A stretch of 31,771 nt of DNA from a virus. The position numbers and the translations under genes are program-made. The DNA lies in IMG/VR virus record IMGVR_UViG_3300005327_000017, positions 1-31,771 of that record; one strand, written 5' to 3'. Below the pieces are notes generated by a model. The model was not told the DNA's origin. It made no database searches and saw only the letters and a list, made by a program, of their open reading frames with translations. This document shows positions 3,544-23,940 of this stretch, piece after piece; the stretch's first letter is position 1, and each line of letters opens with the position of its first letter.

Positions 3544-4746
3544 TTACTGGTGAATGTTGAACACCGACACCGTGTACGGGACGATGGATGACGTCGCATA
3601 CAGGTGCTTCCCATCCGGTGACGGGAAGCACCAATCCGGTCCGATACTACTTGCCGTCGTCGTGTAGTTTGGCGAGGCGCGGACCCGTGCCGGGAATTTC
3701 GCCGTCAGCTGGCCGAACGTACCTGACGCCGGGTTATTGTCCCGCGTGAACTGGTCAATCAGGCACGCATCACTGCCTGCCACGTACACGTTGGCCCCGT
3801 CCGGCGATACCTGCACGCACCATGGGCCTGAGCTCACACCGGTGTAGTTGGCAAGTTGCGTCAGCGAGCCGTCGCTCTGGTTGATGGTGTACGCGGTGAC
3901 CGCGCCCTTGTCGCAAGCGACGTACAGGTGCCGGTCGTCCGGAGAGATACACAGCCAGGCAGGCTGGCCCGTGGGCGACGCGATCGAAGCCTGCACCGAG
4001 TTGATCGACAACTGCCCGTAGGTTCCCGAGCCCGAATTGTTGTCTCGGACCAGGCAGCAGATCTGCGGTGATGTCGTGGTGAAGTTACCCACGTACAGGT
4101 ATTTGCCGGCGATGCCGCTGGAGCCGTTTTTCGTGATGGCGATGTGGATAGGGTGGTCACAACCGGTCGGCGTAATACTCGCCTGCCCAGTAAGAGTAGT
4201 CACCTTGCCGTACGTCCCGGAGCCGGAGTTGTTGTCGCGCGCGAAGCAATAGACCTTCGAGTCCGCGTTGGCAGCAGCGTAAATGTGCGCTCCGTCTGGC
4301 GAGATACAGGCCGAGCTGGCGTTGGAGCTCGACGTTCCCACCGTGATGTTAGGTGCCGCGGCGAATGAACTGAGGGCGCCGGTGGTCGAGTTCCGGTTAA
4401 ACGTCTTGATTTCACTGGTACTGCCATACACTACATGGATGTGCGCCGCGTCGGGCGACTCAACCAGGTATTGGCAGCCGTACCCAGCGCACATCGGCGC
4501 AAGGGCGTCCAGTCGCGTCAGCGCACCCGTGATCGAGTCCCTGGCGAATGCTGTTACCGCATTCGGCTGGATCGTGTTGGCCGAGTAGACGTGCTTGCCG
4601 TCAGCGGTAACGAAAACCCGGTCCGGGTGGTTGTTCGACCCGCTATAGCTGCCGCCGTCCGTCCAGCTGATCAGGGACAAGGTGCCGGGACCTGGAGGCG
4701 TCGGAACGCCCGCGTTAGCAGGAAAATTTCCTCGACGGCGTGCCAT
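3544..4746 (-). CDS. Phage-encoded beta-propeller (YVTN / lactonase-like) protein, probable adhesin
   Basis: A 400-residue protein built of about seven repeats with patterns such as ISPDGAHIYAA, SPDDRHLYVAC, SPDGANVYVAG and SPDGKHLYATS, each followed by FxRDNNSGSGTYG-type loops. This is the signature of a seven-bladed propeller of the YVTN/6-phosphogluconolactonase-like fold. There is no signal peptide, as expected for a virion protein. A catalytic lactonase role is not supported by the context; receptor or glycan binding on the virion is the better inference. The ATG at 4746 overlaps the previous stop as TAATG; a longer frame to 4872 exists but runs into the upstream gene. Confidence 0.7.
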   Translation of the reverse strand: MARRRGNFPANAGVPTPPGPGTLSLISWTDGGSYSGSNNHPDRVFVTADGKHVYSANTIQPNAVTAFARDSITGALTRLDALAPMCAGYGCQYLVESPDAAHIHVVYGSTSEIKTFNRNSTTGALSSFAAAPNITVGTSSSNASSACISPDGAHIYAAANADSKVYCFARDNNSGSGTYGKVTTLTGQASITPTGCDHPIHIAITKNGSSGIAGKYLYVGNFTTTSPQICCLVRDNNSGSGTYGQLSINSVQASIASPTGQPAWLCISPDDRHLYVACDKGAVTAYTINQSDGSLTQLANYTGVSSGPWCVQVSPDGANVYVAGSDACLIDQFTRDNNPASGTFGQLTAKFPARVRASPNYTTTASSIGPDWCFPSPDGKHLYATSSIVPYTVSVFNIHQ

Positions 4747-20332: not shown

Positions 20333-20377
20333 GCATTTTTAGGCTTGCCTCACAAAAAAACATTTAGGATTACCTAA
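20307..20377. promoter_or_regulatory. Operator region OR: three CI/Cro sites
   Basis: Sites are TTAGGCATACCTAA (20307-20320), TTAGGCTTGCCTCA (20339-20352) and TTAGGATTACCTAA (20364-20377). Their left ends are 32 and 25 bp apart. The first lies in pR and the third abuts the cI start codon, giving an O1-O2-O3 layout like lambda. Confidence 0.85.
20342..20370 (+). promoter_or_regulatory. Candidate pRM promoter for cI
   Basis: A weak -10 TAGGAT (20365-20370) lies 6 nt before the cI ATG; the matching -35 position (GGCTTG, 20342-20347) is poor. This suggests a promoter needing activation by CI, and a leaderless or near-leaderless cI message. An AGGA within the operator could also act as ribosome site if transcription starts earlier. 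Confidence 0.45.
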
Positions 20378-21090
20378 TGGAAGAATGGAAAGTACGACTA
20401 CGAGAGGCACGCGAGGCAAAGGGGCTTAGCAAGAGCGACTTTGCTAAAGCTGTTCGCATCTCTCCTCCTACCGCAACGGACTGGGAGAAAAGCGTCGCAG
20501 ATGGTGGTATCAAGGAGATTTCCGGCGTTAGGCTGACCAAAGCTTGCGAGGTGTTGGGAGTCGATTCAGCGTGGCTTCTACATGGTAAAGGCTCCGGCCC
20601 GACCACCACTCCTGCGCCAGACACGATTGAGGAAATCCGGCCCGTCCGAGTGCTTGCCGACGAAGACCCCCTATTCGTGCATATCCCCAAGGTGAGGCTT
20701 TTGGTCTCAGCTGGCGTGAGTGGTTTCGGCGTCGAGCCGGAACCTTATGATGGCTCAACCGCTCCTGTGCCGGCCGATTGGCTGCGCCGTCGCCAGCTTC
20801 GCCCAGAAAAGCTCATCGCCATTCGCGTCCGAGGGCAAAGCATGGAGCCTACGTTTTACGAGGGTGACACCGTCATCATCAACCAGGACGACACCACGCC
20901 CGTCGACGGAGCAGTGTTCGTCATCAATTACGAAGGCGAAGACGTGATCAAGCGTCTGGTGCGAGATGCTGGTGATTGGTGGCTTATGTCTGACAACCCG
21001 AACCAACAGCGATACCATCGCAAGCTTTGCAAAGGCGCGGCTTGCCTAATTCTGGGGCGTGTCGTCCGTAGTGAGCGAGAGCACTACTGA
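20377..21090 (+). CDS. cI: CI-type repressor (LexA/S24-family autocleaving)
   Basis: A 237-residue protein. Residues 5-60 form an XRE HTH (LREAREAKGLSKSDFAKAVRISPPTATDWEKS). Residues 100-230 are an S24 peptidase domain with the Ala112-Gly113 cleavage site (VSAGVSG), catalytic Ser155 in RGQSMEPTF and catalytic Lys192 in EDVIKRL. RecA filament formed on DNA damage would trigger self-cleavage and induction. It maintains lysogeny by binding the OR and OL sites. Its stop overlaps the next ATG as TGATG, so the downstream gene is expressed with it. Confidence 0.95.
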   Translation: MEEWKVRLREAREAKGLSKSDFAKAVRISPPTATDWEKSVADGGIKEISGVRLTKACEVLGVDSAWLLHGKGSGPTTTPAPDTIEEIRPVRVLADEDPLFVHIPKVRLLVSAGVSGFGVEPEPYDGSTAPVPADWLRRRQLRPEKLIAIRVRGQSMEPTFYEGDTVIINQDDTTPVDGAVFVINYEGEDVIKRLVRDAGDWWLMSDNPNQQRYHRKLCKGAACLILGRVVRSEREHY

Positions 21091-21380
21091 TGCAGTGCGC
21101 GGTCATTGATCTTTGCTGTGTTCGCATTGCGGTTGTGAGGGTCCCGCCCCTTATGCTCGTTGATCCGCTCGCAACTCGGACTATTAGGGATCTGCAGCCA
21201 CGTTTTGGCGTCGTTCCGATCCTGCTCGTCAGTTTTGACCAAGTCGACCTGGGTGACATTCAGGGATTTTCAGAGTTCCCGACGGCACCTTACCTGATCG
21301 ATCTGGTCGAATGGAACAGCATGGAGCCCATCGAATGGCATCCGCTGCCCCCACTGATCGAGGAAGAACTACCGTTTTAG
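21090..21380 (+). CDS. Hypothetical protein coupled to cI
   Basis: A 96-residue, acidic protein with an alternating hydrophobic core (CAVIDLCCVRIAVVRVPPLML, FGVVPILLVSFDQVD, YLIDLVEWN) and an acidic proline-rich tail (HPLPPLIEEELPF). It overlaps the cI stop by 1 nt, so it is made in the lysogen. Similar short proteins follow repressor genes in other betaproteobacterial prophages as far as I recall. Function unknown. Confidence 0.65.
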   Translation: MQCAVIDLCCVRIAVVRVPPLMLVDPLATRTIRDLQPRFGVVPILLVSFDQVDLGDIQGFSEFPTAPYLIDLVEWNSMEPIEWHPLPPLIEEELPF

Positions 21381-21418: not shown

Positions 21419-21844
21419 ATGGCACGTACTTTTGAGAACCCGATTAATCGGCACCAAGAGACCATTTCAAGCTCTGATGGTCTCGCCGTGTTCTTTTTAG
21501 GGTTACTCTATTTAATCTTTGAAGGCCTGTGGAACCACGTCTTCATCTGGCTCTTAATCGTAATTGGGCCGGCTTTCGTGTTTGGTCCAATTGTTATTAT
21601 CATTACCTTGCCCAGTGTGGCAATAGCGTATGCCCTAGGCATTCAGGAAATATTGGCCGGACGTTACCTCCGCAATGGTTGGCGCGAAGTCATCGCGGGC
21701 GGAGCATCGCCATCGAGTTCAAGTGCTGACGGTATGAAACTTTGTCCGTACTGCGCGGAGGAGGTCAAAGCTGCGGCCTCGATGTGCAAGCATTGCCAAT
21801 CTGATCTACCGCCATCTGCTGGTCTAGTTGGTGAATCAACATGA
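21419..21844 (+). CDS. Membrane protein with C-terminal zinc ribbon, possible superinfection-exclusion protein
   Basis: A 141-residue protein. Hydrophobic segments at about 21-35, 42-58 and 58-76 form two or three membrane helices. A serine-rich linker (96-105) leads to a zinc ribbon CPYCAEEVKAAASMCKHC (Cys 109, 112, 123, 126) on the cytoplasmic side if the usual topology holds. The start at ATG 21419 has AGGA 6 nt upstream; an earlier ATG is antisense-like. It is in the cI transcription direction, so lysogen expression is likely. The exclusion role is inferred from position. Confidence 0.65.
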   Translation: MARTFENPINRHQETISSSDGLAVFFLGLLYLIFEGLWNHVFIWLLIVIGPAFVFGPIVIIITLPSVAIAYALGIQEILAGRYLRNGWREVIAGGASPSSSSADGMKLCPYCAEEVKAAASMCKHCQSDLPPSAGLVGEST

Positions 21845-21975
21845 GCGCGCCGCGACGCTAAATGACTGTCCGTGGGCGGGCGTTCGAAGTGCTCACCGGC
21901 GCCAATGCACAGTGCCGGGATGGCGCCGACTCGTTCAGCCAGCATCGGCGAGGAGGTGTTCGCATCATGGTGGTG

Positions 21976-22004
21976 TTGAGGGTTAGTGACAGAAAAACTA
22001 ATCC
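21976..22004 (+). promoter_or_regulatory. Weak candidate promoter for the HEPN-like gene
   Basis: TTGAGG (21976-21981), 17 bp, TAATCC (21999-22004). The gap 21845-22061 is non-coding. The -10 is far from consensus, so this is tentative. Confidence 0.3.
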
Positions 22005-22061: not shown

Positions 22062-22640
22062 ATGGCATGGGTTAACACAGCACTTACAGAGCATCCTGAA
22101 CATGCGATAGTGATAGCAAATATCATCGCAGCTTGGAATACGATAGAAGATGAAGTTTGCTCTTATCTTGAGTTGTTTTTTGCTTTGGGTATGGGTGATG
22201 CAAGAGCGATCGCTAGCAAAATTCAAAGTTCAAAAGGAAGGGTGGATTTTGTCGCTGAAGCTGGGAAAAATTTCATCAGACACAATTCAGATTTGCTTGC
22301 GGAGTTTGAGGACATTTTAGCCGTATTACAGAAGAGAATTAAGCATCGCAACCTATACGCGCACGCGATTTATGTAACCAATCTTGATGATCGTGAAAAT
22401 ATATATATTGCAAATAGAACTACCAATCCTTTTGATATAGACGGATACACGAAAATTCCGCTTGCAGATTTGCATTCTCATATGCGGCTTATGGTAGATG
22501 CAAAAAAAAGGCTATTTGATTTCCGGCGGAAGCTTGAGAATAGTATTCCACAGGTATTGAAAACCGAAATAATGCGAGTTCAATTGTTGCGATTCTCGCT
22601 TTCAAATGGTGAAGATATCGAGAACATTGCCTTCGATTAA
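22062..22640 (+). CDS. HEPN-like putative RNase (R-N-x3-H motif), AT-rich cargo gene
   Basis: A 192-residue, mainly helical protein. Residues 20-45 (NIIAAWNTIEDEVCSYLELFFAL) and 50-95 are amphipathic helices. KRIKHRNLYAHAIY contains R96-N97-x3-H101, which is the Rx4-6H signature of HEPN ribonucleases, with the preferred polar residue after Arg. HEPN proteins are common in abortive infection and toxin systems. The gene is visibly AT-rich compared with its neighbours and uses A/T-ending codons, a sign of transfer. The ribosome site is weak. No recognisable antitoxin partner is adjacent, though the membrane gene or the opposite-strand cassette could act with it. Confidence 0.6.
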   Translation: MAWVNTALTEHPEHAIVIANIIAAWNTIEDEVCSYLELFFALGMGDARAIASKIQSSKGRVDFVAEAGKNFIRHNSDLLAEFEDILAVLQKRIKHRNLYAHAIYVTNLDDRENIYIANRTTNPFDIDGYTKIPLADLHSHMRLMVDAKKRLFDFRRKLENSIPQVLKTEIMRVQLLRFSLSNGEDIENIAFD

Positions 22641-22641
22641 T

Positions 22642-22806
22642 TCATGGTTTTCTTTTCGATTCAGCCTTTTGCATTGCCTCCCACACAAGTTGGGCAAGAT
22701 CCTCCAGATCAATGTGGTCCGGTGAATTTTGACAACCTAACTCTCGAAAGAGGACGGTTCGGCCCGCCTGCCGCATCTCGTCTGTCACAACGCGTACCTT
22801 ATCCAT
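22642..22806 (-). CDS. Small acidic hypothetical protein (54 aa)
   Basis: A 54-codon frame (MDKVRVVTDEMRQAGRTVLF, then DLEDLAQLVWEAMQKAESKRKP) with GGAG 7 nt before ATG 22806. It ends one base after the stop of the convergent HEPN-like gene. It is the last gene of a three-gene minus-strand cassette. Confidence 0.6.
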   Translation of the reverse strand: MDKVRVVTDEMRQAGRTVLFRELGCQNSPDHIDLEDLAQLVWEAMQKAESKRKP

Positions 22807-22834: not shown

Positions 22835-23104
22835 CTACCCTGCTGAGCATTCAAGAAACGCAACCATCGTCCAAAATATTTTTTCAGTTGCAGTAGGTAG
22901 ATGACACGACATTTCTTGTGTCAAGATATCTATCTCTTCGCTTAGCTGATCCATTGCTCGTTTAACACCTTCTGGCCCTCCAAAATAGTAATTCGCCTTC
23001 TCGCGAAGCTCGGGTTCCAGATCAGCGCAGTTCCAAAATTCATCGCCTTCGAAGTCCCGCGCGTGCTTGAACCGCTTCGGCGTTGTCGTGTCGTTCTTAT
23101 CCAT
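22835..23104 (-). CDS. Hypothetical protein of the opposite-strand cassette
   Basis: An 89-residue, acidic, helical protein (DFEGDEFWNCADLEPELREKANYYFGGPEGVKRAMDQLSEEIDILTQEM). The ATG at 23104 has a perfect GGAGGTGAG site. It is AT-richer than the gene upstream. No known family or catalytic motif. Confidence 0.65.
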   Translation of the reverse strand: MDKNDTTTPKRFKHARDFEGDEFWNCADLEPELREKANYYFGGPEGVKRAMDQLSEEIDILTQEMSCHLPTATEKIFWTMVAFLECSAG

Positions 23105-23202: not shown

Positions 23203-23559
23203 TTACGCTCTCAGCGCCGACCTACGTGCGCGGTAGCGCCGGGCCAGGCGCGGCACGAAGCCCGGGAACAACGCCGCCGTCAGGGCCGGTACGGCGGGCG
23301 GCTGCGGCGCCCCGCTATTCTTCCCCACCTCGGCCGAGCGACACTCGGCCCGGTTCCGCGCCTCTTGCTTCGCCGCCCGGATACGCACCTCCGCATCCTC
23401 GATCATCGCCGGCGTGATCTCCAACGCACCGTATCGCCACGGCCAGCCGGCCTGCAACGGGTACGGGATCCCGAAGGCCTCAGCCTCGCCTCTTTTCAAT
23501 GCCTTTGCCTTTTTGCCTCGTTGCTCCAGGTAGGCCGACAGGGTCAATTTTTCGGGCAT
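23203..23559 (-). CDS. Hypothetical phage protein, first gene of the opposite-strand cassette
   Basis: A 118-residue basic protein. Residues 1-60 (LTLSAYLEQRGKKAKALKRGEAEAFGIPYPLQAGWPWRYG, EITPAMIEDAEVRIRAAK) are a compact conserved-looking domain; the C-terminus is a Pro/Ala linker and a basic tail (PRLARRYRARR). The ATG at 23559 has AAGG ahead; a GTG at 23583 is possible. Function unknown. Confidence 0.6.
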   Translation of the reverse strand: MPEKLTLSAYLEQRGKKAKALKRGEAEAFGIPYPLQAGWPWRYGALEITPAMIEDAEVRIRAAKQEARNRAECRSAEVGKNSGAPQPPAVPALTAALFPGFVPRLARRYRARRSALRA

Positions 23560-23940
23560 TTTCGGGCCTTTTTTTCTCCGCACCCGTTAAAGGTACTGTT
23601 GAGGTACTAATTCTTGGCTGATCTAAGAGGTATTCTTAGGTTATAGGTATCTAAGGATACCCCAGCAGAGTCTCGGTTCCGGATGGCACCCTCCCTAAAG
23701 GCCAGCGATAAAGCTGGCTTTCGTGGAGAGCGCCGTACCCCGTGCTTTCGCCTTCGGACGCGCTTGGCAACAGACTTTCCAGGTGCTTCCACCTGTCCCC
23801 CGGCGCGCTCTGTTCCTACCACCCACGCGTTGCCCTTCCGGCGTCCTTGGCTCTTGGGCCTGGACGTCGGCGGTTTCCCCTCCCTGCTCCAGGCTTGCAG
23901 TCAGCCAAACTCAGCCAACGGCCTAATTGTACCTAAAAAT
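23560..23940. other. Non-coding region upstream of OL/pL
   Basis: This stretch of about 380 nt has open frames on both strands with unnatural composition (long Pro/Arg/Ser runs) and no ribosome sites. It contains repeated AGGTAYT and CTAAG motifs near 23591-23656, a GCCAGC/GCTGGC hairpin (23701-23718) and a C-rich, G-poor + strand tract at about 23740-23890 that could serve as a Rho-loading site. A degenerate operator-like sequence lies at 23923-23936. Confidence 0.5.
23591..23656. repeat. AGGTAYT and CTAAG/CTTAG repeat cluster
   Basis: AGGTAC/T occurs four times across this stretch, and CTAAG, CTTAG and CTAAG alternate at 23623-23656, including the dyad CTAAGA-N5-TCTTAG. It lies upstream of the opposite-strand cassette and is likely its promoter and operator area. 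Confidence 0.45.

Follow-up and report, generated by a model that had tools for sequence, protein, structure and literature searches.

In the window, by which we mean the whole 31,771-nucleotide stretch of IMG/VR virus record IMGVR_UViG_3300005327_000017 that was analysed, a gene downstream of a cI-type repressor encodes a 192-aa protein that is probably HEPN-like. Our best reading, which in our judgement is poised evenly between right and wrong, is that the protein works on its own as a HEPN-type RNase, bringing about superinfection exclusion or abortive infection. The gene and the two conserved signatures within it are as follows.

22062-22640, plus strand: gene of the HEPN-like protein, 192 aa (ATG-start ORF, composition, and homologues sharing the signature)
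22134-22148, plus strand: codons of W25-N-T-I-E29, the W-x3-E signature in the predicted first long helix (conservation)
22347-22364, plus strand: codons of R96-N97-L-Y-A-H101, the HEPN Rx4H signature (conservation; published motif, PMC3710099)

HEPN proteins are defined by an Rx4-6H motif with N, D or H after the R, often accompanied by an acidic residue upstream (Ex3[KR]), and their domain is a bundle of four helices, the third of which ends in the motif (PMC3710099). The first-pass annotation had matched RNLYAH at residues 96-101 to this signature. Taken alone, the motif is weak evidence and only mildly unusual: composition-preserving shuffles of the 192-aa protein contained RNxxxH in 3.1% of cases and R[NDH]x3H in 7.7%. 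What takes RNLYAH beyond chance is that its R and H are invariant among distant homologues. Searches of phages, plasmids, viral contigs and genome contigs with the HEPN-like protein alone returned zero matches, and the homologues were reached through whole-genome searches and through profiles built outward from the first homologue. The latter, the one clear match (E 1e-9, plain single-sequence search) in 394 genomes of Massilia brevitalea's bacterial family, is 201 aa long and carries RNAIAH in register, with W-x3-E upstream as in the 192-aa protein. Profile searches added L048, L049 and an Azospirillum plasmid protein, and family matches at E <= 1e-3 occurred in 24 of 398 Pseudomonadota genomes (~6%).

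Across an alignment of 26 members, which are 11-26% identical to the 192-aa protein, Arg96 and His101 are invariant and Glu29 and Asn97 are at least 90% conserved, a level reached by no other position; the W of W-x3-E is present in most members. The fit to the Rx4-6H definition, with a polar residue after the R, was thereby borne out, and the conservation of the Arg96/His101 pair, which had been named beforehand as a point on which the assignment could fail, held in every aligned member. Glu29 is a candidate accessory acidic residue, yet the sequence E29-D-E-V-C33 has no K or R at the +4 position of Ex3[KR]. The alignment excluded L061 (which is without the motif), L064 (two ORFs, the second half with RNRFVH) and L072 (a coiled-coil match), as well as L058 (RNTFAH) and L065 (RDFIVH), both of which have R[ND]x3H. 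A profile of residues 1-92, which ends before the motif, recovered most of the same proteins, and nearly all of its matches carry Rx4H, indicating that the conservation of the motif is more than an artefact of searching with a motif-containing profile. The least conserved region of the family is the C-terminal part, residues ~103-192.

No library model used here covers the family; the 192-aa protein had no match in Pfam, NCBIfam or PHROG, and no significant match by sequence to a Pfam HEPN family or a solved HEPN structure. The profile search against HEPN families that the first-pass annotation had proposed was answered in part, in that family members matched HEPN models of PADLOC weakly, whereas the 192-aa protein itself gave no significant match. 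Four of the seven PADLOC models that family members matched weakly are HEPN models (Csx1, the best at 9.2e-5, RTasHEPN, CARF-HEPN-CARF and Csm6), a raw count that is not scaled to the share of HEPN models in the library. Alignment to HepT sequences with hhalign placed RN...H on RN...H with a score of 20.6, versus 8.6-10.1 for reversed controls, at a probability of only 4%. Other candidates were set aside. The PADLOC model PDC-M04B (E 0.0035) was aligned over profile positions 4-84 only, and we dropped it because the better genome matches to this model cover a different part, positions 61-157, and look like an unrelated protein. A DARPin from the PDB search, and anti-RecBCD protein 2, Phage_antitermQ and T4 Cef from Pfam, fell below threshold and were attributed to chance.

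An AlphaFold model built from a 3-sequence alignment reached a pLDDT of 68.7 and a pTM of 0.58 (a single-sequence model reached a pLDDT of only 59), and in this low-confidence model helices span residues 12-40, 44-52, 57-71, 76-100, 134-161 and 164-191. In the same model the motif ends the long helix 76-100 and is followed by a beta hairpin. With this query, of pLDDT 69 and built from 3 sequences, Foldseek returned nothing significant from the PDB, HEPN structures included. Against viral models, Foldseek returned one protein (E 4.3e-3, probability 1.00, TM 0.54/0.63). The 192-aa protein resembles the HEPN superfamily, to which HepT of the HEPN/MNT modules, Csm6/Csx1 and reverse transcriptase-associated HEPN proteins belong, in its Rx4H with a polar residue after the R, in a conserved acidic residue upstream and, as far as the low-confidence model goes, in an all-helical core whose motif stands at a helix end (PMC3710099). 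It differs from the superfamily in that the 192-aa protein itself has neither a significant HEPN model match nor a partner domain.

These results also bear on the alternative that the protein is not HEPN at all, and is instead an unrelated helical protein in which R-N-x3-H serves a structural or ligand-binding role. The lack of a significant match to a Pfam HEPN family or structure, the appearance of the motif in 3% of shuffles, and the lack of an obvious separate first core helix ahead of the W-x3-E helix would all agree with it. We nevertheless regard it as very unlikely, given that the R and H are invariant at the right 4-residue spacing, with a polar residue after the R and an acidic residue upstream, in very divergent members; that HEPN models come first among the weak PADLOC matches; and that in the low-confidence model the motif stands at a helix end with a beta hairpin next to it, as in Csx1-type HEPN domains (PMC3710099). 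The HEPN-type signature is well supported at the level of the family, and the HEPN fold is putative.

The gene had been described as AT-richer than its surroundings and as lying downstream of cI in the same direction, and both descriptions proved accurate. Its GC content is 39.2% (GC3 35.8%), whereas the window has 60.3%, cI 57% and the gene at 23203-23583 67%; the repressor lies ~970 bp upstream on the same strand, a position and strand from which the HEPN-like gene is probably expressed in the lysogen. Four features delimit the locus.

20377-21090, plus strand: cI-type repressor (HTH_3 and Peptidase_S24, Pfam), the left anchor of the locus
21090-21380, plus strand: conserved 96-aa ORF, bounding the variable segment on the left (55-67% identity to its counterparts in L002-L005 and L009)
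21889-21976, plus strand: decayed 3' remnant of a resident gene, bounding the HEPN insert on the left (79% DNA identity to the end of the intact L015 gene)
23203-23583, minus strand: conserved kin-phage gene, the right edge of the variable segment (45-67% identical in L002, L003, L004, L009, L015 and L016)

Four viral contigs and the Massilia brevitalea locus L009 carry repressors 75-87% identical to this one, and on that basis the phage is assigned to Massilia-type hosts. The 96-aa ORF lies directly behind cI in each of L002-L005 and L009, and most of the close kin share an arrangement of cI, the 96-aa ORF and, further on, the minus-strand gene at 23203-23583, with phage-specific genes between. 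When distant kin (repressor 60-62% identical) are included, the segment measures 1.8-6.8 kb in eight loci, its right edge in L005 being placed by eye, and it is AT-richer than its flanks. From the cI region to the 23203-23583 gene, the genes are largely different in each of these eight loci; the segment behind cI is a high-turnover, hypervariable cargo site.

The decayed gene end at 21889-21976 translates as GANAQCRDGADSFSQHRRG, after which the frame is lost, and the intact gene is found at L015 12286-12714, while L016 retains a shorter piece of it near 3870-3890. The two remnants and the intact gene indicate that the left edge of the insert lies at one place in three phages. We take the C-terminus of this gene, decayed in the window and intact in L015, to resemble DUF3761. 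An 82-bp stretch common to the window and L015, initially taken for a possible recombination or promoter element, proved to be the decayed gene end.

In two of the eight kin loci, L002 and L009, genes matching PADLOC defence models occupy the site behind cI. The first (L002:11076-12679) holds genes that match cll (7.6e-27) and beta (9.3e-18; PD-Lambda-2_C is matched as well), and the second, in Massilia brevitalea (L009:11762-12972), a two-gene DUF1828/PDC-M24B-type cassette. By these profile matches, the segment appears to house anti-phage systems in relatives, and we infer from the eight kin loci that the locus behind cI is a prophage defence hotspot. In L015, the site behind cI (L015:12771-14224) holds a gene for a HATPase-like protein followed by one for a DUF4325 STAS-like protein, together an unassigned two-gene cassette.

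Hotspots of this kind have been described in Vibrio, where K139-like prophages have an antiviral cI-integrase hotspot, and in P2 and P4 as well (PMC9122126). The locus behind cI resembles the Vibrio cI-integrase hotspot in being a small, high-turnover locus behind the repressor, with conserved phage genes around it and defence-model genes in relatives; it differs in belonging to a phage of another lineage with a Massilia-type host, and in being inferred from eight kin loci. Among 21 newly found defence systems of E. coli, six have HEPN-like motifs and 12 are in prophages (PMC9519451). For the gene examined here, the chance of an anti-phage role, such as several prophage genes are known to have, seems to us close to even.

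A different role must be weighed against this: the protein could be HEPN-like, cutting or binding RNA, and yet serve a purpose other than exclusion, for instance by processing RNA, responding to stress, or regulating prophage or host within the lysogen. HEPN domains are active in RNA processing as well (PMC3710099). Most homologues are chromosomal, about half are not AT-rich, and many have a GC content matching their surroundings; the family is not phage cargo exclusively. The residence of most homologues in bacterial genomes (24/398 Pseudomonadota), many with GC like that of their surroundings, agrees with parts of the family serving in housekeeping or stress. However, just two viral homologues were found, L075 and L076, each of them AT-rich cargo lying between tail genes of P2-like prophages. 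The window copy and these P2-like prophage copies alike are strongly AT-rich and occupy variable or moron-type sites as cargo; the defence-model genes at the equivalent site in kin phages are a further point against a role other than exclusion. We consider such a role somewhat unlikely for the window copy. Two side observations concern neighbours of homologues. In L075 and L076, the HEPN-like gene has a gene for a 264-aa membrane protein beside it, which in L075 (L075:4944-6639) follows it, possibly forming a two-gene cassette, and the gene directly downstream of the homologue in L048 (L048:1996-2850) also encodes RNxxxH (RNALAH), perhaps a second HEPN-like protein.

The immediate neighbours of the gene in the window raise the question of partners.

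21419-21844, plus strand: membrane protein with a C-terminal zinc ribbon (weak Pfam zinc-ribbon matches, clear PHROG ribbon matches)
22642-22806, minus strand: small convergent ORF, 54 aa (ORF only)
22835-23104, minus strand: small convergent ORF, 89 aa, with a good ribosome-binding sequence before it (ORF only)

The first-pass annotation had offered the zinc-ribbon protein or the convergent small genes as the other half of a system, and this suggestion was not supported by the comparison of homologues. Neither the zinc-ribbon gene nor the small ORFs were found beside any homologue, and, close relatives of each other aside, no neighbour recurs across all of them within ~1.5 kb on each side (for most loci). 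The 54-aa ORF, which stops two bases from the end of the HEPN-like gene, had no relative among the compared loci or in plasmids, and the 89-aa ORF had none among the compared loci or in phages. Zinc-ribbon membrane proteins are also present in the variable segments of L005 and L009, which lack a HEPN gene. With no recurring neighbour, with small ORFs that have no relatives, and with zinc-ribbon proteins that occur apart from a HEPN gene, we treated the gene as standalone. No MNT nucleotidyltransferase gene adjoins it, its neighbours being the zinc-ribbon membrane protein and the two orphan ORFs; the 192-aa protein has no nucleotidyltransferase, CARF, reverse transcriptase or other partner domain; and no Rfam RNA near the gene scored above threshold.

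The same observations inform the possibility that the protein is the toxin of a toxin-antitoxin module, in which the antitoxin would be the convergent ORFs at 22642-22806 and 22835-23104, acting as protein or antisense transcript, or else the zinc-ribbon membrane protein. HEPN toxins with adjacent antitoxins are common, as in HEPN/MNT (PMC7641770), and here two small ORFs oppose the HEPN-like gene, the nearer ending two bases away. Moreover, Tha, a HEPN anti-phage system that S. aureus prophages carry and that a phage tail protein activates, is controlled via overlapping, opposing transcription (PMC11087260). We judge a toxin-antitoxin module unlikely, as these neighbours stand beside no homologue and no partner is common to all homologues, the small ORFs lack relatives and lie on the opposite strand, unlike the usual toxin-antitoxin operon, and the zinc-ribbon membrane proteins of the L005 and L009 segments do without a HEPN gene.

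A standalone HEPN-type RNase in phage exclusion, the reading we prefer, invites comparison with Tha itself. Both are prophage-encoded single proteins with R-N-x3-H (RNSIMH in Tha-1) and opposing transcription nearby. Tha-1 is cargo that protects the lysogen (PMC11087260), and such protection is what we propose here. Tha-1 is a 301-aa protein whose HEPN domain is C-terminal (184-296) and whose N-terminal part has no known domain; the 192-aa protein, in contrast, carries its motif mid-protein (96-101) and has no long N-terminal part, and in this respect it falls outside Tha. Phage-encoded AbiF of C. difficile is comparable as a HEPN-type abortive-infection protein on a phage, but AbiF is under RNA-based regulation (PMC12373285); near the HEPN-like gene no Rfam match exceeded the threshold. 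A further parallel is provided by lambda RexAB, whose genes are likewise on the lysogen side, downstream of cI and in the same direction, exclusion being the proposed role here. RexAB differs in that RexA acts as a sensor and RexB as an ion channel in the membrane.

We postulate that the protein may act as follows. Its gene is carried as cargo by a temperate phage of Massilia-type soil bacteria, at the site behind cI, and is probably expressed in the lysogen; the product is most likely a metal-independent endoribonuclease in which Arg96 and His101 would form the catalytic pair, with Asn97, and perhaps Glu29, assisting. HEPN RNases generally work as homodimers, and the protein is putatively a homodimer also. 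When another phage infects, some cue would release the RNase, and residues ~103-192, as the least conserved part of the family, are the likeliest sensor. Once released, the RNase would cut RNA, such that the infection is stopped and the cell lost, which would amount to superinfection exclusion or abortive infection of the kind known from Tha. A bolder conjecture, which we think quite unlikely, is that an unmodelled W-x3-E ... R-N-x3-H family has been recruited independently as cargo by unrelated prophages, each member combining sensor and RNase in one gene, with detection by the C-terminal part and control by the convergent small genes.

If the preferred reading is right, an undescribed and fairly common small HEPN-type family would join the candidate one-gene effectors of phage defence, and the stretch behind cI in Massilia-type prophages would be a place to seek new defence genes.
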